From NCBI GenBank assembly GCA_963281255.1, contig OY725500.1, forward strand, positions 434,001 to 498,000: 64,000 nt of DNA, written 5' to 3'. The notes beneath the pieces are model-generated. The model was not told the origin of the DNA. It searched no databases and worked only from the letters and a program-made list of their open reading frames with translations. The DNA is from Aphrocallistes beatrix. Its lineage: Eukaryota > Porifera > Hexactinellida > Sceptrulophora > Aphrocallistidae. Positions 3,801 through 21,800 of the stretch are shown in pieces (within the stretch, counting starts at the first letter, position 1; each line of letters starts with the position of its first letter). Both the position numbers and the translations under genes were made by a program.

Positions 3801-6800
3801 GCTTCTTTCCGACTGATATCCTTCAACACCCCCCAAAATCCCGGCTTCTTCTTGAGGAGGGAGAGAGTGGAGTACCTGTACCTGTGACTGAATATATCTT
3901 CATAGCGTCCGCATAGCTGTAAAGGGGACCTCCCGTCTCTTACTAAGAATTCGTTCGTTTGACTCGCTTCTATTTGTACTTGTTTCACGGCACCGCATAA
4001 TCTCTGTAAGTAAATCGAGTTTTGTTCTTCCATATTTTCAATAATACAATTCAGTTCCTACTAGAGCATGCACTAATTGCTTTTTGAACAATAATAATGT
4101 ATGTATGCCTACTTCTATGCTACATTTGTACATGTTGAGTGTGATGGTCATTTGTTGATTGTACGGATTACGATTGGTTTCTTCGATAAAGTTTTATATA
4201 AAGTTGTTGAAAACTTAGGTATATAAGTCTAAATTGACTAATTCATTGAAAGATGGTGAAGAATTATGAATAATTCAATTAATGAATTATTCAAAATCTC
4301 AAACATTAGTGCAGATTCTATGCCCAAAAGTGGTTAAAAGGTTGCTCATGTTATAAACCTCTAACATTGCTCAGTCCCTAAGCGAAATATCAAATCTCTT
4401 TTCATTATTTTAGTTTCAAATTTTGAGTAATTCATTGATAATTCATGAATTAGGCAACTTAGGTATGTGCTTAGCTTAGAAACGGAAGGGGGTATAAGGA
4501 ATTCGTAATGTCTATTAGGTAGAAAATAACTATCTCAAATAATTTTTATAGTTCTTTCAAATAAACTTATTTACTCATAAATTAGATTCATTCTTTAGGT
4601 AGATACTAAATTTAGATTTAATGTTTCAAAAGCTTTATTAGGATTCATTATCTTATGAGGAATCTAATATGTACTTTATAGACTCTAGATCTTCAGTACT
4701 ATGGACCCAAACGTATTATGAACATTCGTTTATATCAAATAACCTGGTTATATTACAGTTTATATTACACAGAGATAACTAAGTAGTATTGTATTCAGAA
4801 TAACTATTCTCTGATTTCATTTCAAATAGGTTTATTTTTCCGCTTTTTACTATCACAAAAAATTCAGTTCAAAGTTTAATAGCAAAATAGATCAGACATC
4901 AGTGGTAGTGTAGTATTTAGTGAAAACATGCAACACCTGACAAACAAACAAATCAATAACCCCTTCTCCTCTTATTCTCCTTCATGAGTCTCACGAGTTG
5001 TTCCATCCCTTCATACAATCCATCTCCCGAAGTAGCAGAAGTTCCTTGGACGCACCAACTATGTCCACGGATTCCATTCAGCTCGAAGTCATTGACTAGC
5101 TTGGTGGGTGTCCTGGAGTTTGGGAGGTCTTGTTTGTTCGCGAACACGACGAAAGGCACTCCCTCCATTTCAGAATCGTTTATTATCGAGTGGAGTTCAT
5201 CTTTAGCTGTGGTGAGTCGTTCCTTGTCCGTTGAGTCAACGATGAACATCAAAGCGTCTGTCCCACGGAAATAATGTTTCCACAAAGGCCGTAATTTATC
5301 CTGACCCCCTATATCCCAAACGGTGAATGTCACATTCTTGAGCGGCGAAACTGTCTCTACGTTGAACCCGATTGTCGGAATGGTTGTGACACATTCGTTT
5401 AGTTTGAATTTGTAGAGAATGGTAGTTTTCCCAGCTCCGTCTAGCCCCAGCATAAGAACTCTCCCATTGGTAGTCCCGAGGTTCAATAGTGATTCCCAAA
5501 GAGCAGCGAATTTTGAAGCGAATCCTCCCATTTTGAATGTTCTTGAAAAGTTTCTGAGTTTATATTTTCAAATGCATCAAACTGTCATATTTATACATAC
5601 GGCACTGGGTTTATTTTTAGATTTTTATTTCGATCGACGTGGCATTAAGAACGTTTTTGTTTCAAAGTTAATTCGTCATATAAGTAACGTTGTAACTGGA
5701 TCCATTCAATTAGTATACTACTACAAACCATATAGTCACAACTGCCACATCATCCATAATAACGTGTACCTTACTCCTACACCGAATCACTGTGTATATA
5801 TAATGGAAGTTCAGTTTAGATTTATTGAATAGAAATTACTAAGAGAAGAATGGGACTTTTTCTAAGCAGAATAATGCAATCCATTTCCAGTTTGGGAACG
5901 ACTCAAGCACGCATTCTCATGTTAGGTTTGGACGCAGCAGGGAAAACTACAATTCTCTACAAATTCAAGTTGAACGAGACAGTCCAGTCCATTCCTACCA
6001 TTGGGTTCAACGTGGAGACGGTAGCACCAGTAAAGAATGTATCTTTCACGGTCTGGGACGTGGGTGGGCAGGACAAGATTCGGCCACTTTGGCGACACTA
6101 TTTCAACGGGACCGACGGACTCATATTCATCATAGATTCAGCCGACAAGGAAAGATTCCCCGAAGCGAAGAGCGAACTGTTCAATATCCTCGATGACAGT
6201 GAAATGAACGGAATTCCTGTCGTCGTATTCGCTAACAAGCAAGACCTCCCAGGAGCCCAATCGCCAGCCAATCTGATACGAGACCTTGGCTTGGAAACCC
6301 TGAAAGGACACGATTGGTACATACAAGCTACTTCTGCTACTACTGGGGATGGCCTGTACGAAGGAGTGGACGCACTGGCTAAGATGGTTAAAGAGTATAA
6401 AGCTAAGAAATGATTGGGTGTCACTTTTAATATTTATTTCTGAGTTGGTGTAGGCTGTATTATGACTATGCAATGCAAGATATTAAAAGCTGTATTTTCA
6501 ATTACTATTATATGAGTAACATCCAAGGAATCTGTTTGGTATTTAATGTACAGTCGACTCTGCTTAATAGGGTCACATCCAGGGGTTTATCTAGGTGCTT
6601 GGCAGGTACTTATAGGTGCCAGCCTGGTATTGTCCGAGGAGTCAAGGTGCTTGCAGTGTGATTCGATTTTGGTCCCGGTTGCTATCACCCCTGGAATTAC
6701 AAGATAAACCACTGTTTGGGTGCCATATAGCTTTTATCACCTCCAAAAGTGCCGGATTGGAAAATACTAGATAAACCCATGGTCACATCGGTCAGAGGAC

Positions 6801-9800
6801 ATTTTGGCCCGATTAAGCGGAGAACCCTATTAACAGAAACCATTTTGTAGCTTCTATGCGTGCTAACTATTCCGGTCCTGCCAAAAGTGGCCCAATTAAA
6901 CAGTGACCCTATTAAGCGGAGTTGACTGTATTTTCTATTCATATTTCAATTCATATGTCAAACAGCTCAGTTTTTTCGTAGCTATCCAGTTCAAGCATAG
7001 AATCTTCCGTTATTTGACTCTTAGTGGGAATTTTTTGTGGGAAAGTAAGGTAGGATTATAGTCGTCTTATTTAAATATACCAAATGAGAGTCTAGAGCAG
7101 TGATTCTCAAAGTGGGCCGTAGAGCCCCCCAGGGGGCGCTGAAGGGTTGTTGGGGGGCGCTAATGTGTTTTGTTAGCAATACATCTACGATATTTGAACC
7201 TCAAAAAAAATGTGTATTCCAGAATATTGATGTTCAATCTTTGAAATAAATTTCAACATTCACTGTAGTTGTTAGAGCTAGAAAGTACAATAATCACACT
7301 GTCAATGGTTTCCCGTGACTAATTAATACAATAATTACACTGTTGATGGCTTACGGATCATGAGTAAGGGGAGGGGGCGGTGTGCTAAATTAGTTTGAGA
7401 AACACTGTTCTAGAGCAATTTCATATTGTAATTTTGTGAAGTGTTATTTTATAATTTCAAATCTTATATCTAGATTCTACAATGCCATTCTGAAAATGAA
7501 TGTTTGGGCGCCATATTCTAAATGATTCCCTTCTTCAAGAGTAGAAAAATTTTTTTTAGTTTTGTTTCCTCTCCACTTCTCGCCCAGTGGACACAGAGAG
7601 TAGCAAGAGAGACCTAGAGAGGCTAGAGGTAGCTAGGAATGGCTACTCCAGTCAGATTGTAGTAGAGAGTGTCACACTGAGTAGAAGTATGGGACAAACT
7701 CTAGGTAGTGATTGGATAGAATCTCCATCCAACTCTTATTATTAAGCCTAGCATTCATAATGATGAGTTATACGTAAACATCTGAAATCACTATTGAATA
7801 TTGTCTGAAGAATTTATATTCACTTCCTGTGTGTTTTCATATGTTTGTTTCTGTTACTAAACTGGTTGAATCTTCTCTTACAAATAGAGCATTCGTACGG
7901 TTTCTCTCCTGTGTGTATACGGCAGTGTTTTATGAGATCTGAACTGTCACTGAACCTTTTAGAACAAGTGGTGCATTCGTACGGTTTCTCTCCTGTGTGT
8001 ATACGGCGGTGTCTTATGAGATCTGAACTGTCACTGAACCTTTTAGAACAAGTGGTGCATTCGTACGGTTTCTCTCCTGTGTGGATACGGCGGTGTCTTA
8101 TGAGATTTAGATCTAGAGAGAACCTTTTATGACAAGTTTCACACTCAAACGGTTTTTCACCAGTATGAGTACGAATGTGCCTCTTCAGATCTGCATTAGA
8201 AATGAATGGCTTAGAGCAATACTCACACTTTAATAGATCCTTCCCTGTATGGATACGAGTGTGTTCAGTCAGACTACATTTGTGATAATATGAACGAGAA
8301 CACTGCTCACACTTATACGGTTTATCTCCTGATCCAGATTTTCTCATTTTAATCGTACCTGTTGTAGCACACACCTCTCCATCTCCATTTTCACACCTTT
8401 CCTCACTCTCCCCTAACTCTACACTCACTTCCTGGATTCCGAGCTGTCTAGCGTACTGATCTCCGTAATAGACCAGAAGTTCGTTTCCAGGTCGGATCGG
8501 TTTGTAGCTCCGATAGTAGATACGGCCTCTGTACTGAAACGAAACCAAATTCTGCTCATCCTCGTTACGAGCACAGTTCACGAATCGCAGCCAGTTCGCC
8601 TTACTCAGGTCTTCTCCGTCGATGTACCAGATCGTCTTGCCGTGATCTCGCTTTATCTGCCACAGATACTCACTCTCGTTCGGGAAATCTTCCACACATC
8701 CTTTGATAAGCTTCCCAGCGTAGGGACCCATTCGAGTGCGAATTGGAATAGTCTCCTTTGCGAATATCCCCAACCCTGCACCAGGAATGGAAGATCGTTT
8801 GAGGGAGAGAGGACTCGGTATCGGAATGATGGAGAAAGGCGATATGTCGATTCGGGATTCGTCTAACGGTTTCAACTCCTCGTGAACAGGACAGTCCCCC
8901 ATGTACAGCTCATTGCATTCCTCGCAGAACAGAAAACAGTCCTCGTCCGATAGATCTTCTTCCGTGTAGTCCACCTGCTTCAAGTGACGCCGGTTTCGAT
9001 CCTTGGCCAGACTTTCCTTCCTCCCAATCCGTTTGTCCCCCTCACTATCTTGGATTTCCAGTCTCTCTGCCAGCTGTTCGTGTCGGATGTGTCTTCCGAC
9101 TAGAGCGATGTCCTCCTCGATTTCAGCAACTTCTTCTTCTCGCTTCAAGAACTCTTCGTAGCACTCTCCACTCTTGGAGGATTTCTTGAAGTCTCCACTC
9201 TTTTCGTCCAAACTCAAATCCACGAATTTCAGATCTTCAAAGTCGTCCGTTTCCACTTCATCAACAACTTTTCGTTTGTTGCTACATTTCCCGAATGTGT
9301 AATCACACGGTACATCCACGTTATCCCTCTTACTCCGTTTCCCGTTTGTCTCCGTCGATTGACTCTTCCGTTTCCTTCTCTCTCTTTCCTCTTTCTCTTC
9401 TTGTGCGATCGCTTCTTCCACCATTCCTGGTCGGTGGTACACCACTGGTGGAGGTTGGAAAGTTGGCTTCTTCACACTTTTCACATTCTTGACACTCTCA
9501 CTCGGTTCAGGACGCCAATCCTGATCAGAACTGGAGTCAGAAGATTCTTCTAGCTGGGAGGATTGGTAGGACTTTCCTTTCACTCTCATGTCTATGCCTA
9601 GCTTCAAGAGAATCCGCTCGTTCTTCCGAATGTTCGCCTCTCTCTCTCGCTCGTATTCACTCCTGAACTTCTTCTTGCAGAATACAGACATACTGAGTAG
9701 GTGTTAAGTGTTGTGACTTAATTTTATTTATTTCTCTTCTCTTCTCGTTTTATTGTCAGAGCATACACTCACTCTTGCTCTTCTTTGGATAAATTTAGAA

Positions 9801-12800
9801 CTCAAAAGCTGAAATCTGATTCATTGAGAATTCCCATTCAGTTTATTTTTAGAATTCTATTATAGATAATTGCAGTAATTCTTTAGTTATTTCGATTAAT
9901 ATTTTAATTTTATTTAGTCTTTTAAAATTATTAAACTTATATTGTTAATCAGAATCAAATATTATATTCTAAGAAATGGATAAAACATTGAAAATATTTT
10001 TTCTATTTCCTAAACTACTTTTGAAGTAATCATGGATACAAAAACTTTATAATTAAATTATTAAATGTTTCGACAAACCTTAATCCTTTCGTTGATTCGA
10101 GTTTATTCCTACTCAGCAAGTTAGAGACAATTTCTCCTTGTGTCGTATCTTCTAAATTTAGAACTTTCTTTCCTCTTAAGAGTAGAGATGGGCTTGGAGC
10201 TGCTCTAGACTTTTCAAAATTCAATTCCTGTTTTTCTAAAAATAGATCGAATTCAAACAATCATTTATGAAATTGTGTCACTATTGAACTCACTAGGTTT
10301 AGGAGAAGGAATGGGGACGATTTTACTATCTTTCTTCCTAAGGATTTTAAATAGAAGCTTATCTCCAGCATTCTTGATAACGAGTAGTGCATCTTTGTGT
10401 GAAATCTGCTCTAGTGATGTACCATTAACTGATAGCAGTTCATCTCCCATCTAAACACAGTCAGGATTTAACAGAAAATATACAATATATCTAGACATAC
10501 TAATTTCCTGGACTCAAACAGTATAGTTCGCTTATTACCAACCAATTTTCAAGTCCCAAGTTTAGATTTTGTATTAATTTCAGTTCTATTAGCAACAATT
10601 TTATGAAAGTTGCTAATAAGCAAACTCCACTGTATATGAAATATCAATATGTCCCATCACAGAAATGGTATTAATATTTTCCAGGATTACCTCGTCCCGA
10701 AAATTACACACTCACTTTCAATCTCCCGTCATTCGCCACTATAGAATTCGGCCCAATTCTTCTGATATAAACTCTCTTGTCCCCTGTGTCACTCCCCCCT
10801 GATAGTACCACCCCTAACTTATTGTCCCCTCCTCTCTCTAATTCCACCTCCAAGATTCTGTCTCCAAGGGAAATATTACGAACCACAGGCAGAGGTGATG
10901 GATTCACAAATGCATTCTCATTGGCTGAAGCAGACCTCCGCTGGAGTATAAATAGGACTGACTGGTTTAATGGAAGATTTTCATACATTCGAATCGCCTC
11001 TTTGAACGAAATTCCAATATAACTGATATTATTCACATTCAGAAGTTGGTCTCCTATTCGTATCTGTTTCGATTCACTCGCAGGTGAATTGGGTACAATT
11101 GTACGAACGTAAACATCTCCCAAATGCATCTCAATTCCTCCCTCGAATTCCAAACCAAACATATCCTGTTTATTCCTAGCGATAAGCTTAATATTATAAA
11201 CTTCAACTTTATGCTTAATCGTTTCAACACTTTCTTGGAGCTCTTCCTTCAAATCCTTAGACTTCTGAGATCTCGCTTCGATTATATGTTCTCCTTTCGA
11301 AAGATTGGAGATTATTTTTTCGGCTTGTTTCTTAGAAGTGATCTGGTTCCCATCAATTCTTACTAAGACGTCTCCTACTTCGAGTGGAGGTGTGGTTCGA
11401 TTTAAAACGCTACTCCCTGCCACTAAGCATACCATTACTTCTCCTTGCTTCTCTTCTGACAGTTTGAAACCTAACACTTTGAATATCTTCACGAATCTGA
11501 TCTCTTTATCCACGATTATGCCAGGTTTACTGAATGCTAGCTCACTCGAATCTTTCTGTTTCTCGAATTGCACCCTAGAAAATACCATTTGCCTAGGCAA
11601 TTCCCCTGTCACTGACATTGAAGAAGTTTGGTGAATGAGAGAAGATCTTCTCTTCTCCAAGGTGTCAAGTGGTTCTGTAGGGTGGAACTCAGGTGGTTTT
11701 GTGTCGGTATCTATGCTTTCAACTTGATGTGTTTTGGATAAGTGTCTCTTTCTGAATAGAATGCGTTTAGGGTTAGTTGTCGCTGTTTTCTGTTCTGAAG
11801 ATGGATTCTGATTGGTGGTTGTGGTCTCCTCTTGATCCTAGACAAGTATAAATAGGAGTGAGTACAGTGCAAATGTCTTCTTTTGTTCTATTAGCATTTT
11901 AGTTGTTTGTTTGCTGCTATTTAAAACTCGAGACTCGTAATTTAGAATTACAGGTAACTCCGCTTAATCGACCAAATATTTTCTCCTGGTTAAGCAGAGT
12001 TCCTAATTAACCAATGAAAGTTAGTATTAGCTTCTATGTATGGGAACCATTCCGTTCTTGGAGACTTGTCCCGATTAATCAGAGTTGACTGTATAACATA
12101 TGGAGTCAATAATACACTTCCATTCATATTAACTAAATATCAAACTGAGTATCACTGTATCATAATGAGGAGATTACCATCTTCTCGCTAACTCTGTCTC
12201 CGATCAGGTCCTCACTGCTGGCAGGAGTAATGAGAGTGAACTCAGAGGAGTTGTACCCAGACAGTCCATCCATACTGGACTTCATACTCACATCCACCAT
12301 CTGAATGGCTCTCCTAGCAGGAGAGACTACTGCATCCATGGTGCGGAGATCTTTCAGGGAATCCTCGAACGAACCTAAGTACCTCTGTCTGCTCTCTGAT
12401 TTCATATTCCCGGTGCCTAGATTGAATTGTACTAGATAAGTTTGCTTCAATGTCACTCAACTCGTACCAAGTCAAACTGAAAACCCAGTTTTTAGCTGTG
12501 TTCATACAGATAACCAAAATGCTATAGAAATCGCATTTTTCATTTTGGTAGTTGGTACGAGTTGGCTGGTTCCCATTTGCTTATAAGAACAAACTGATTA
12601 TAACCAGCATAGGATATTATAGTCAGTATTCAAGTGGAATTCGGGGAACAAATGTGGTTGTTTCGTCGCTGATATTTCTTTGAATAAAATTATTTAATCC
12701 TCACTTTCATTCATTCTTCATTCTCCCATTCATTCTAACAAATAATAAATGACAATCAACCATCCCCTCACGAGATAAAAATACCACTATCGCGTGCCAT

Positions 12801-15800
12801 TTGATATTATTTGAAACTCAAAATGCTCACTTTCTCTTTGCTCTTATACAAAAATACTCTCCAAATGCTCATTCTCTTATATCAATTCTATTCAGCTTTA
12901 GAACAAACTAATGTTTCCCAAAGTTTGTAATTCCATTCTAAAATATCAGCGACGAAACTTTCGTTTCCTCGTAGAACATATTTACACGTTAATACCTTGC
13001 GATGCAACCGAAATGGAACTCTCAGTGAGTGAAGTCTCGCTACTCCTGAACAGACCCACTGCTTCTCTCAGTATGATCAGTGTGAACACACTGCTAGACT
13101 GTCTCAGCATCTTCATAACCTCAGCACTGCTACGTTTATAGAGCGGGGTACTTTCTAGTGCGTAGAGTCTGTCCGACTTCTTCAACCGCCCGTCTCTAGC
13201 TGCTAGTCCCTCTGGTAGGACGTGTCGTATCTGTAAGTACCCTTCCGTGCGTCCCTTGCTAGGGGAGAGAGTGACGCCGAGAGTTTCAGACCCGTGTTTA
13301 GAGAAAGTCAGCTCTAGCATATCGAATCCTGAAAAAGAGCTTGAGACCTATGGACATGAAATCTGGATCAATCCAGTACACCCTGGGGTTTATCTAGGAG
13401 CGCGAGACGCTCCTTTAGGCGTATGATTTTAAGCTCGAATGTGTTTAGGAGCGTGAAAATTTAGAATATTACCCAATTTACCTTATATTATAATGTTATT
13501 TATCGATTTAGGCGTATGAAAAATTATGGATTCGAGATTAGGAGCATATCTCTGGAGGGCTGTATAATTGCCTGCACTCAGGGGTTTATCTAGGTGCTCG
13601 GCAGGTACTTATAGGTGCCAGTCTGGTATCGTCCGAGGAGCCAAGGTGCTTGCAGTGTGATTCGATTTTGGTGCTGGGTTTCCATCACCCCTGGAATTAC
13701 AAGATAAACCACTGTTTGGGTGCCATTAACTTATATCACCTTCAAAAAAGTGCCGGACTGGGAAATCCTAGATAAACCCATGAGTCCACCCTCACTAATC
13801 CGAACATTCCATTCTTAGAATTCGAACACGAAAACTACGTTATTGTTCCCCTCTTCGTTTAAAATCGAATTTTATAATATTTTATTAAATTAAGATTGAG
13901 AAAATTTCGTTAAAAAGCAATCATAGTGAAGCAATTAAATTCTGACCTCACAAATGTATTAACGTTAAATCCCCATTGAATTAGTGTTATTTCACTAAGG
14001 ACAAATTCGCTAATCCAAACGATTTTTTCTATCGTTGGTAGTAACTTGTTACAGCAATGCGGATTAGAGAGGATGTACTGTATTGAGGCATAGCAGTGTT
14101 CGTATATAATTCCTAGTCTAACTCTATTGTCTTACTTGATCCAGTTTCCTTGTTTCTCCGCTTCTTACAGAAACGTTTTCATCTATCATTCCAGAACTCT
14201 CATCTCTGTCTGGAGTACGGATAACTTCGAACTGGATTTCTCCGGTCAGAGAGGACAAGACAGTGAGAACTTCTTGTTGATTCATTCCTTTCAGGCTGGA
14301 GTTGTTCACTTCTAGCAACTCATCTCCCACCCGGATACTCCCTTGCTTAGCAACGGGACCTGATTTGAGAATGCTAGTCACTAGGATTCCACCTTGTGGA
14401 GTACTAGACGCAAGAATGTTCATTCCTAAGAAACAATTATACTTATAAAACTATGAAATACATTAAATGAATAGATATGTTGCGTTATTATAAGTTCCCT
14501 ATCCAAGGAGAAATTGTCTCTAACTTGTTGAGTAGGAATAAACTCGAATCGACGAAAGGATTAAGGTTTGTCAAAACGTTTAATAATTTAATTATAAAGT
14601 TTTTGTATCCATGATTACTTCAAAAAGTAGTCTTAGGAAATAGAAAAAAATATTCTCAATGTTTTACCCATTTCTTAGAATATAATATTTGATTCTGATT
14701 AACAATATAAGTTTAATAATTTTAAAAGATTAAATAAAATTAAAATATTAATCGAAATAACTAAAGAATTACTGCAATGATCTATAATAGAATTCTAAAA
14801 ATAAACTGAATGGGAATTCTCAATGAATCAGATTTCAGCTTTTGAGTTCTAAATTTATCCAAAGAAGAGCAAGAGTGAGTGTATGCTCTGACAATAAAAC
14901 GAGATGAGAAGAGAAATAAATAAAATTAAGTCACAAACACACTTAACACCTATTCAGTATGTCTGTATTCTGCAAGAAGAAGTTCAGAAGTGAATACGAG
15001 CGAGAGAGAGAAGCGAACATTCGGAAGAACGAGCGGATTCTCTTGAAGCTAGGCATAGACATGAGAGTGAAAGGAAAGTCCTACCAGTCCTCCGAACTAG
15101 AAGAGTCTTCTGACTCCAGTTCTGATCAGGATTGGCGTCCTGAACCGAGTGAGAGTGTCAAGAATGTGAAAAGTGTGAAGAAGCCAACTTTCCAACCTCC
15201 ACCAGTGGTGTACCGACCAGGAATGGTGGAAGAAGCGATCGCACAAGAAGAGAAAGAGGAAAAAGAGAGAAGGAAACGGAAGAGTCAATCGACGGAGACA
15301 AACGGGAAACGGAGTAAGAGGGATAACGTGGGTGTACCGTGTGATTACACATTCGGGAAATGTACCAACAAACGGAAAGTTGTTGATGAAGTGGAAACGG
15401 ACGACTTTGAAGATCTGAAATTCGTGGATTTGAGTTTGGACGAAGAGAGTGGAGACTTCAAGAAATCCTCCAAGAGTGGAGAGTGCTACGAAGAGTTCTT
15501 GAAACGAGAAGAAGAAGTTGCTGAAATCGAGGAGGACATCGCTCTAGTCGGAAGACACATCCGACACGAACAGCTGGCAGAGAGACTGGAAATCCAGGAT
15601 AGTGAGGGGGACAAACGGATTGGGAGGAAAGAAAGTCTGGCCAAGGATCGAAACCGGCGTCACTTGAAGCAGGTGGACTACACGGAAGAAGATCTATCGG
15701 ACGAGGACTGTTTTCTGTTCTGCGAGGAGTGCAATGAACTGTACATGGGGGATTGTCCTGTTCACGGAGAGTTGAAACCGTTAGACGAATCCCGAATCGA

Positions 15801-18800
15801 CATATCTCCTCTCTCCATCATTCCGATACCGAGTCCTCTCTCCCTCAAACGATCTTCCATTCCTGGAGCAGGGTTGGGGATATTCGCAAAGGAGACTATT
15901 CCAATTCGCACTCGAATGGGTCCCTACGCCGGAAAGCTTATCAAAGGATGTGTGGAAGATTTCCCAAACGAGAGTGAGTATCTGTGGCAGATAAAGCGAG
16001 ATCACGGCAAGACGATCTGGTACATCGACGGAGAAGATCTGAGTAAGGCGAACTGGCTGCGATTCGTGAACTGTGCTCGTAACGAGGATGAGCAGAATTT
16101 GGTTTCGTTTCAGTACAGAGGCCGTATCTACTATCGGAGCTACAAACCGATCCGACCTGGAAACGAACTTCTGGTCTATTACGGAGATCAGTACGCTAGA
16201 CAGCTCGGAATCCAGGAAGTGAGTGGAGAGTTAGGGGAGAGTGAGGAAAGGTGTGAAAATGGAGATGGAGAGGTGTGTGTTACAACAGGTACGATTAGAA
16301 TGAGAAGATTTGGATCAGGAGATAAACCGTATAAGTGTGAGCAGTGTTCTTGTTCATATTCTCACAAATATGATCTAACTGCACACACTCGTATCCATAC
16401 AGGGAAGAATCTATTAAAGTGTGAGTATTGCTCTAAACCATTCACTTGTCAACAATATCTGAAGAGGCACATTCGTACTCATACTGGTGAAAAACCGTTT
16501 GAGTGTGAAACTTGTCATAGAAGATTCTCTCAAGATATAAATCTCATAACACACCGCCGTATACACACAGGAGAGAAACCGTACGAATGCTCCACTTGTC
16601 ATAAAAGATTCTCTCGAGATATAAATCTCATAACACACCGCCGTATACACACAGGAGAGAAACCGTATGAATGCTCCACTTGTTCTAAAAGGTTCAGTGA
16701 CAGTTCATCTCTCATAGCACACCGCCGTATACACACAGGAGAGAAACCGTACGAATGTTGTATTTGTAAGAGAAGATTCAACCAGTCTAGTGCCAGAAAC
16801 AGTCATATGAAAACACACAGGAAGTGAATATAAATTCTTCAGACAATATTCAATAGTGATTTCAGATGTTTACGTATAACTCATCATTATGAATGCTAGG
16901 CTTAATAATAAGAGTTGGATGGAGATTCTATCCAATCATTACCTAGAGTTTGTCCCATACTTCTACTCAGTGTGACACTCTCTACGACAATCTGACTGGA
17001 GTAGCCATTCCTAGCTACCTCTAGCCTCTCTAGGTCTCTCTTGCTACTCTCTGTGTCCACTGGGCGAGAAGTGGAGAGGACTAGAGGCTCTTGGATAACT
17101 TCACTTGGAGTACCTTCTGAATCTGAACATACCTTGAAGAAGTATTTAATAATAATAATAATAATAATAAAAAGCTACTTTCTAGAGTTATTTATTTATA
17201 GTATGATACTGGCACAAGAAAGATCTCCCAATTTCTCAGCTAAAAATTATTACTCAGCGAATAAAATTTATCCTCAAAAACCCAATTTATTAACTTGTCA
17301 GTAATCCCACACATTTGAACAGGGAACACAAATACAGTGGAGTTCACTTATTACCAACTCCCCAACCAATTTTCAGGTCCCAAGTGTATATTTGTATTAA
17401 TTCTGTTCCCTTATTAGAAACTTCGAAATTAGCAACCATTTTGTGAGTAAAACTCGAGTTGCTAATAAGCGAATTTCACTGTACTACAACATAGAGTTTT
17501 AATTACAGTCGACTCCGCTTAATAGGGTCACATCGGTCAGAGGACACTTTGGCCCGATTAAGCGGAGAACCCTATTAACCGAAACCATTTTGTATTAGCT
17601 TCTATGTGTGAGAGCTATTCCGATCCTGCCAAAAGTGACCCTATTAAGCGGAGTCGACTGTATATAAATTACTGGGAGTTCTTCAGTGATTGGAGTCTGC
17701 TGTATCGGAGACAGTAGAGCGTCTATATCCACATTCTCCAACTCCTCTCTGCTCATGCGTAGAGCCGTCTCGGATCCTTGGGCCCTAGTCAATTCTCCGT
17801 CCCTTTCATCTGAGATAAAGTTGGCTCTCTCTATCCCAGCTATCAGCTCACTCAGATCTGACTCCAGTGGAGAGTCCATCTCGTTGCTATCAGAACTCTG
17901 ATTCATTTCCTGGAAGAGAAGGACGCTACTGTCTGTCTGATAGCTAGGAGATCTGGGCTCCAGTCTAGAAATATGAAATAATAAACTCTGCAATTTCATT
18001 TTGTCAGCATGTTTTGCTACTTTTGAGGCAAGGTGTGAAAATATGAACAATCGTTACATCTGGTACAAAACCACTCCATATAAGGAATTTTTGTCCCAAA
18101 TTTGGTAAGAATCGGTCAAGTAGATTTTCAAATAACCTCCCAACGGAAGAAAATACATCTAAAAATGCTATATAAAAATGAGTCTAGGCGCATAGAAAAA
18201 TGGTGACGTCCATTTAGGCGTATGACTTTAGAAAGTTGGATGAAATACTGGTCTCAACAATTGGTATCTAGATTCTGAATGAGTACTGCCATAACTCAAC
18301 CATTAGAGATACAGTTGAAATCGTTTTTTTTGTTACCAAATCTTTGTAGTATAAATTGTTTTATTCATTTAATTTTATTATCAAATATTCAGACATCTTT
18401 GTATATCGTTTTTTTACTTTTACTTTTCAGTCAAATGGGCAAAATACACCGAATTCGACTGTATCTTAAGATATTTTCTTTCCTTCAGGCGTATCTAAAT
18501 GAAGACTCACAAAAGATTGAGTTAGAATTGTACCCAATCAATCTTTCATTCTACAAACACACTTCTTTCCCATCCAAGCATCACTCCTCAAAACAAGGAG
18601 ATTCCATGGGAGTCAGTTTCCAGAGCGTAGTTCAGTATCTGATGAACCTCAGTGGTACCTCTAGCCATCCCACTGGACAGCCACAGAACTTGAATGCTCC
18701 TGGAGTGATTAACCCTATCTACAGACAGCATTCCTATTATGGGGCGTTTAGTAGGTTAGTTGTTATTGTTGTTTAGTGATACTTTCGAGTAATAATTTTA

Positions 18801-21800
18801 ATGTTTTCTGGTTGATAATTAATATTTATTTGTATAGCTTCTTACTATTAAGATTCTCATTCTGGTTTTCTTGTTTAAGATGAGACTGTATATTTTGATC
18901 AGAAAAATTAAGAATTTCGATACTAATAATGCGAATTCCTCGTTTCTGATCATAAATGTACATTGCTTTTCTGATAATAATTCTTGATATTTTCTGATCA
19001 AAATATAGTCTCTTTAAGATGACCAATAAGCAGTGTAGCGAGGTTAACCTATAGAAACCAGTGCAATGTATTAGGTCCTACTCTATATCTATAAATAAAT
19101 AACTCCGTCGTTCTCGAACTTTCCACTGCATACCACCATAACAACCATATTAAATAACCACAAAATACACCATTAGAGAACCCCAAGAGTCAAAAGGGAA
19201 ATCCACAAACAGGACGTTAGGATTGACTCATGTCATAACAACATCCATGGTCCAGGAATACATTTGAGTAAATATGGCATGCAACTGCCCTAATCGTCAA
19301 TTAAGATTAAAGAGGATGTGATCTTATAAATTTGCATAATTATTCAAACTTTAATTTATCCTAAATATAGTCAAAATATGATATTTAAGTACATTGAAAG
19401 AGTAATTTCTGAGTGTAGATAAAGTTCCACAAGGAGATATCCTTTCAGAAACATGACACACTCCTGCTTCAAGGAAACTAGCCACAAACCTACCAGTCAT
19501 TCTCTAATCAGTCTCTCCCTCTCACTACGACACAACACACACTTTCAGTTCATGATACCAACACACTTCTCATCTGATATAAATATACACTCAGTAAACA
19601 ATTCATTAACTCAAATCAAACAAAGGAACAATCAATGGCTTCAAGATTCCCTGAGAGCGAACCTTCCCTCCATTCCAATCCATTTGAAAGAGCAGAACTC
19701 CTCATCAAATCCACCTTCAACTCCCTGATGAAGAAACTGGAAGAGAGGAGGGACCAGCTGCTGGTAGAGCTGCATGAGATGAGTGCTAACTACTTCAGCA
19801 AAGAGGAGACGAGACAGAAACAGATGAAGGATCTGGATCAGCTGATTGCAAAAATTCAAGAGGCGACTATTGAGCAGAATCTCATAGTCGATTTACAAGA
19901 ACAACAAATTCAAAAGATGAAAAATGAAAAGGAACAATTCCAACATCCAACTCCTACCTCATTTCTTCACTTCGACACATCCCTCCTGGAGGATCTATTA
20001 CAAAATATAGAGAAGTTTGGATCTCTACAAGATATAGCTCCCATATACCGCACGAAAGTACATCCTATTAGGTCTATAGGCAAGCAAGGGAAGGGTAGAG
20101 TAGAACTAAATGGTCCATGTGGTGTAGCGATAGATGGGAAAGGAAATATATTCATAGCTGACACGTATAACGGTAGAATTCAGTTAGTTAGCTTGGAGGG
20201 TCAGTTTATTCAAGAATTTGGTAAGGGAGTGTTAATTTGGCCTTACTCCATAGCTCTATACAATGATTGGTTGTTTGTAACTGATTTAGATCTGATGAAT
20301 AAAGTCCTAAAATATAAAACACAAAACTATAAATTAGAATGTAAGAGTGAGTTAGAACTTAATCGTCCATTTGGTATAACAGTAGATAATAATGAAGTGT
20401 TTGTAGTAGATCGTAATGATAATAGAATAGTAGTGCTAAGCTTAGATCTTAAATTTGTTAGAGAATTAGGAAATAAGAAGTTAGTAAAGCCAAAAGATGT
20501 TAAAGTAAATAATAATAAAGTGTTTGTAGCTGATAGTAGTAAACATCATAATGTACATGTATTTTCCAAGTTAGGAGATCTACTGAATAGCATTATAAAC
20601 TTGAGAGTTGGAACTGATGATATATTTCTATGTTTAGATAAGTTTAATAATATTCTAATTAGTGATTATTCAGGTAAAATAATACAAATATACACATTAG
20701 AAGGTCTGTTAATTCATAGTATTGAGTGTGATTATAAACCTGCAGGAATAGCAGTGACTCAAGACAATATTATTATTTGTGTTGATTTTTCTAATAATAA
20801 ATTAAACTTGTATTAGATTTTAGTATTTATTTATACTTAAATTTTGTTGTTGTTTATTTATCTATTAAATCTTGCTCTGTATATAACTCCCCCTTCCTCT
20901 CCAGCGCCCCCCTGAGACAAGCAAACGCCCCCTGGGGGGCGTTAGAGCCCCCGTTTGGAACCACTGTTCTAGGGTGATAAGAATTCACACTTCAAAAGAG
21001 CTGATTATTTAGGGAGTGGTGGGCAACCTGGGGTCTGCGGGACTAAAATTCATTCTCCACAACCTCTTCAAACACTATATAATTGGACCCGCCTAATTTT
21101 TGTGTGAAATTGATTCTAAATATAAATACTGTACTTTATTTTCTACCATCATCATATAACTTGGGCTAACGATTCAATGTATTTCACTTAGTTATTTTTC
21201 CTTTACAAGTATAATTTTTTAAATCTGTCAGTTCTTGATGGCCATAGTATTGTAACTGTAGCAAGAACTGACAGATTTTCGGGCTCGCTTAAGGATTATT
21301 TAAGGTTTCCCGCCACTGACTTAGGAGAAACATTAAAATTGGATTATTTTTTAAATTTATTAAGGGATTGTTGATATATTTACAGTCGACTCCGCTTAAT
21401 AGGGTCACATCGGTCAGAGGACATTTTAACCCGATTAAGCGGAGAACCCTATTAACCGAAAATATTTCGTATTAGCTTCTATGTGTGAGAGCTATTCGGT
21501 CCTGCCAAAAGTGGCCCGATTAAGCGGAGTCGACTGTACATAAACATCTAAGCCTATATGACATCTCACCTCATGCTCTGTTGACTAGGAATAGGCTGCA
21601 GTCTATTCTGCCTCTTGGCTATGGTGAGTAGTCTCTCTAACGGCTCTAAAGGAGAATACCTCCGTATGCCTAGGTCAACTTGTCCCGGAGACAGTGTCCC
21701 GATTATGGCATGAGCTCTCCTCAGGTTTGTACTGGTAATGGGGTCTCCGTTAATGGTGAGTAGCTGATCTCCTCTCTGTAGAGATCGTTCATGGTACGCT

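Follow-up and report, generated by a model that had tools for sequence, protein, structure and literature searches.

PRDM9 is the protein that chooses recombination sites in mammals, and the locus described here raises the question of whether two linked, inverted PRDM9-like genes in the glass sponge Aphrocallistes beatrix could have a comparable role. The window, that is, the whole stretch of DNA analysed (64,000 nucleotides; contig C14:434001-498000), contains two inverted arms of about 2.6 kb each, at 7567..10140 (left) and 14504..17080 (right), each bearing one PR/SET-C2H2 gene and 96.1% identical across 2,581 columns in a BLASTN comparison. Copy A (7820..9691, minus strand, 623 aa) and copy B (14959..16827, plus strand, 622 aa) are intact open reading frames on opposite strands, as an earlier sequence-only reading had described. 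The genes had also been called intronless, which holds in that each entire frame is a single open ORF; however, a 5' untranslated exon is possible, because a candidate acceptor (..cag) was recognised by eye directly upstream of both ATGs. The "about a dozen" differences reported for the first 460 residues were counted as 12 substitutions and one single-codon indel. At the nucleotide level, the arms diverge most in the finger array (51/495, 10.3%) and least in the 3' flank (2/253, 0.8%). Between these values lie the linker (5/114, 4.4%), the 5' flank (15/449, 3.3%) and codons 1-420 (26/1,257, 2.1%). The 4.4-kb spacer between the arms is no part of the repeat and carries an ORF with a PDZ domain (10704..11660, minus strand). 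The frame of a converging neighbour, a putative exon, is cut near the arm edge on the copy A side (7560..7742, plus strand) and continues beyond the arm edge on the copy B side (16905..17174, minus strand). Since this frame is continuous only at the right arm edge, copy B probably occupies the older location and copy A is probably derived, as judged from one neighbour frame. Two related single-frame genes, divergent and head-to-head at 4953-5531 (minus strand) and 5850-6413 (plus strand), lie beside the pair and presumably encode ARF-family GTPases, and a 393-aa ORF at 19635-20816 (plus strand) encodes what we take to resemble a coiled-coil plus NHL-repeat protein.

The zinc knuckle and PR/SET domain span residues 250-420 of copy A (8432..8944, minus strand) and residues 249-419 of copy B (15703..16215, plus strand), and the two copies received the same PR score in the genome profile search. 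Among solved structures, the closest matches of the PR/SET domain were to PRDM9 (142, 133 and 132 bits), followed by PRDM12 (97), PRDM4 (84) and PRDM11 (81), supporting the relationship to PRDM9 that had been proposed. Alignment with the PRDM9 structure showed that the zinc knuckle (CxxC..CxxH) and three tyrosines, in GPY, FQY and YYGD, are kept; the latter are presumably the PRDM9 catalytic set. Pfam matches above the cut-off were PRDM2_PR, SET and C2H2 fingers, and the C-terminal tandem array comprises six C2H2 fingers in each copy (copy A, 7823..8317, minus strand; copy B, 16330..16824, plus strand). Pfam detected neither KRAB nor SSXRD in the protein. The genome search for KRAB gave no match and that for SSXRD gave one sub-threshold match elsewhere than the pair (E 0.33), and both searches matched in no control genome either; an ancestral KRAB is described as diverged in the available text of PMC8835667. 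In the genome searched (100.5 Mb, 28 contigs), the PR-family search yielded three matches, namely, the two copies and a third on contig C1, which we consider another PRDM because it is only 39% identical over 56 residues with the protein query and its frames look split across exons. Two genes only of the PRDM9-like PR type were present among the genome matches, and we call the locus a duplicated, apparently KRAB-less PRDM9 variant.

The divergence of the two copies is concentrated in the residues that contact DNA, defined here as helix positions -1, 2, 3 and 6 of each finger. Differences were observed at 17 of the 24 contacts versus 13 of the 141 other finger residues (Fisher P=3.7e-10), rather than being spread evenly over non-contact codons. 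Contact differences had been claimed for fingers 1-5, and all five show them, but finger 6, which differs at positions 3 and 6, had been missed. Because finger 4 is homogenised with a different neighbour in each copy and is therefore not comparable, the test was repeated without it, giving 13/20 contacts versus 10/117 other residues (P=9.5e-8). The dN/dS comparison of contact and non-contact codons that had been suggested, made with pairwise Nei-Gojobori counts between copy A and copy B over few codons, gave the same result. For the contacts of all fingers, dN was 0.66 and dS was 0.04, and the ratio was 0.63 for non-contact finger codons (0.44 without finger 4), 1.48 for the whole finger array, 0.05 for the PR/SET region and 0.09 for codons 1-420 (dN 0.007, dS 0.076). 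The 25.5 non-synonymous changes at contacts exceed the 4.6 expected under neutrality from dS (Poisson P 3.5e-11); without finger 4, there are 19 such changes and 0 synonymous ones, against a neutral expectation of 3.9 (P 3.7e-8). The excess persisted with the highest dS tried (P 1e-9; without finger 4, P 4.5e-7), and a small excess was also observed in the linker (codons 421-458; 5 non-synonymous and 0 synonymous changes). A raised mutation rate in the array was not supported as the cause of the finger divergence, with a dS of 0.080 there against 0.076 in codons 1-420. It is also unlikely that one copy is drifting: if one were unconstrained, about 37 non-synonymous changes would be expected in codons 1-420, whereas 7 are found, next to 19 synonymous ones. 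Replacement focused on the contacts is therefore combined with a constrained body, and a PRDM9-family duplication with selection on the DNA contacts is well supported.

The arrays have also been reshaped internally, in a different way in each copy. In the left copy, 82 of 84 bases are identical between fingers 4 and 5, against 68 in the right copy; for fingers 3 and 4, the right copy has 75 identical bases of 84 and the left copy 64. This result agrees with the earlier description of a different homogenised finger pair in each gene (4/5 left, 3/4 right) and fits separate homogenisation events, as far as the present sequences can tell. The further idea that the linked arms could exchange sequence found no support from run lengths outside the arrays, where the longest stretch of identity measures 187 bases versus 186 expected (P=0.42), and gene conversion between the arms was thus not detected. 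In addition, no recent donor for an import of fingers from other genes was observed among the matches listed for the copy A array (150 of 247 candidates scored); among these, the best outside match over almost the full array had 55% identity, and up to 74% was reached over shorter stretches.

Other C2H2 genes of the same genome were used as controls. Clusters of such genes, in open single frames, are located at contig C9:640-925 kb and contig C13:355-375 kb (L020-L039), with further matches on contigs C16 and C17; an acidic motif at the N-terminus is common to most of the genes read on C9 and C13, and contact differences are frequent between close pairs. Twenty stretches from C9 and C13 yielded 30 arrays of at least 4 tandem fingers (32 including the PRDM9-like pair) and 435 control pairs; the 40 pairs with no fewer than 16 aligned contacts and an identity of 70% or more were kept. 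A contact bias at P<1e-3 was observed in 28 of these 40 pairs, so that contact divergence, which had been presented as the pattern of PRDM9, is shared by ordinary C2H2 paralogues and is by itself no PRDM9 signature. In other words, positive selection at the finger contacts is found between the copies but is unspecific. The contact odds ratio is 23.9 for copies A and B, and reaches at least 10 in 9/40 and at least 20 in 2/40 control pairs. Two control pairs at least as similar as copies A and B (99.5% and 93.1%) showed contact differences of 0/28 and 0/20, and the next most similar pair (87.7%, locus L024) differed at 10/16 contacts versus 6/96 other finger residues. The ratio of the contact rate to the rate outside the contacts is 25 for copies A and B and reached 10 in 0/40 control pairs, a contrast weakened by the short, acidic and perhaps less constrained N-termini of the controls. 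With a statistic of within-array contact diversity that follows Baker et al., the two genes ranked 29th and 30th of the 32 arrays (0.245 and 0.223; top 0.474), so diversity within the array is not concentrated at the contacts, which speaks against a mammal-like array. Many complete vertebrate PRDM9 genes rank first by this measure in the available text of Baker et al. (2017, PMC5519329), and such diversity is a trait of many fast-evolving PRDM9 genes, not of the family as such. The contact-biased divergence of duplicates is also found in clustered C2H2 families, those of the A. beatrix genome included, and the C9 and C13 clusters resemble the clustered zinc-finger families of vertebrates; the control genes are unlike the pair in their mostly acidic N-terminus and in having no PR/SET match.

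Genes for partners in the PRDM9 pathway are present in the genome. One match was obtained for SPO11, in a frame that carries TP6A_N and Toprim, three for HORMA proteins, which are candidate relatives of HORMAD, and two for the CW domain. One of the latter lies in a 278-residue open frame (L017) that combines a CW with a PWWP domain; among solved structures, this frame matches ZCWPW2 best, and it may encode a relative of ZCWPW1/2. Both of these readers are reported to co-evolve with PRDM9 across vertebrates (PMC7494361, PMC8892340, in the parts available). The ZCWPW-like gene is nevertheless supportive only, since, according to the available text of PMC7494361, ZCWPW1 is retained even in certain species whose breaks are thought not to be positioned by PRDM9. 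The second CW match (L016; contig C18:27482-27616 and flanks) differs from the other loci read in that its overlapping frames have a high content of Arg, Ala and Pro; it may represent foreign DNA or simply a region of high G+C content. When mitochondrial code 5 is applied, COX1 on contig C28 is a single open frame, 16 AGA codons being translated as Ser and TGA as Trp; outside bilaterians, the use of AGR for serine is a trait of glass sponges. A compact genome with single-exon genes is also found in Aphrocallistes vastus (80.32 Mb, 19,578 genes, 12,409 single-exon transcripts in the available text of PMC10282587).

Several explanations can be considered for these observations. The two arms, which are just about 4% apart, might be two alleles of one gene set by the assembly as an inverted pair, and differences at contacts are common among PRDM9 alleles. 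However, the arms are separated by a 4.4-kb spacer with its own PDZ ORF, the neighbour frame is cut at one arm only and dS between the copies is near 8%; such an artefact is exceedingly improbable. The fingers might also have diverged through a loosening of constraint in a redundant duplicate, with no positive selection involved. This would suit two redundant genes with repeat-like arrays, but it does not predict contact replacements above the neutral expectation even without finger 4 (P 3.7e-8), non-contact finger codons that are constrained (0.44) or zinc-binding residues that are intact in the fingers of both copies, and we regard it as quite improbable. More weight is given to the possibility that the two genes encode PR/SET transcription regulators outside recombination, acting for instance during development or against transposable elements, with fingers diversifying for new regulatory targets. 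The clustered C2H2 duplicates with the same contact bias (28/40, and the L024 pair in particular) are consistent with this explanation, as is the failure to find KRAB and SSXRD in the protein and in genome searches that matched in no control genome. Nevertheless, the closest solved relative is PRDM9, with knuckle and tyrosines kept, the contrast between contacts and body exceeds that of all 40 control pairs, although control N-termini are perhaps less constrained, and a ZCWPW-like gene is present. A role outside recombination is thus a real possibility, although a somewhat doubtful one.

We consider a meiotic hotspot role of this inverted PRDM9-family duplication to be the likeliest mechanism, and we propose it with moderate confidence. 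The PRDM9-like PR/SET domain, the excess of dN over dS at the contacts beside a constrained body, the separate homogenisation of the fingers, the count of just two genes of this PR type among the genome matches, the SPO11, HORMA and CW-PWWP genes and the fast contact evolution published for sea anemone Prdm9 favour this hotspot role, and the missing KRAB and SSXRD, the contact bias common in C2H2 duplicates and the low within-array ranks were counted against it. Under this mechanism, each protein would bind its own DNA motif and place H3K4me3 and H3K36me3 on nucleosomes near the motif, and the marked sites would direct meiotic breaks that depend on SPO11, the CW-PWWP protein being a putative reader. 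Two linked genes whose fingers diverged after duplication would then provide two hotspot specificities, and the driving pressure would be the loss of binding sites by biased repair, as in the turnover of mammalian PRDM9.

The pair shares with vertebrate PRDM9 the zinc knuckle, a PR/SET domain with three tyrosines, a C-terminal C2H2 array and contact-focused change in a gene with a constrained body, but it differs in that no KRAB or SSXRD was found, each gene is one open frame and two linked inverted copies are present; moreover, the vertebrate array is a near-uniform minisatellite, whereas six rather dissimilar fingers are observed here. More than one PRDM9-family gene per genome is also described, in sources available in part, for ruminants, primates (PRDM7) and salmonids, although these are vertebrates. 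According to the available text of Baker et al. (2017, PMC5519329), vertebrate orthologues without KRAB and SSXRD show no fast finger evolution, and both domains are linked to the hotspot role in vertebrates; the present pair departs from this rule, unless a diverged KRAB has been missed. Outside vertebrates, positive selection at the contacts has been reported, as here, in the available text of Oliver et al. (2009, PMC2779102), which describes concerted evolution with positive selection at -1, 3 and 6 for Nematostella Prdm9 and three Prdm9 sequences for Capitella, which may be alleles or diverging paralogues, whereas the copies described here are assembled, linked and inverted. Full-length PRDM9 homologues have been reported in cnidarians and sponges, with the retention of function stated to be unknown (2026, PMC13186367, available text). 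Thus, sponge PRDM9 (PMC13186367) and fast-evolving anemone fingers (PMC2779102) are already in print in these sources; among the best-ranked literature titles, none was about an inverted PRDM9 pair or sponge PRDM9 itself, and no word beginning PRDM occurs in the main text of either of two papers on glass-sponge genomes (including PMC10282587, as available).

A more far-reaching proposal, which we consider rather unlikely, is that recombination in this sponge is directed by PRDM9 without KRAB and SSXRD, and that the inverted pair gives two specificities at once, the duplicate being an answer to hotspot erosion. If this were true, one array would be free to change while the other keeps meiosis going. 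Whatever the answer, contact-focused selection occurs here together with a ZCWPW-like gene and a PR/SET domain that is intact, in an animal without detected KRAB or SSXRD, the N-terminal domains thought necessary in vertebrates. With two near-identical paralogues in one genome, both the requirement of these domains for the hotspot role and the age of that role become testable questions.
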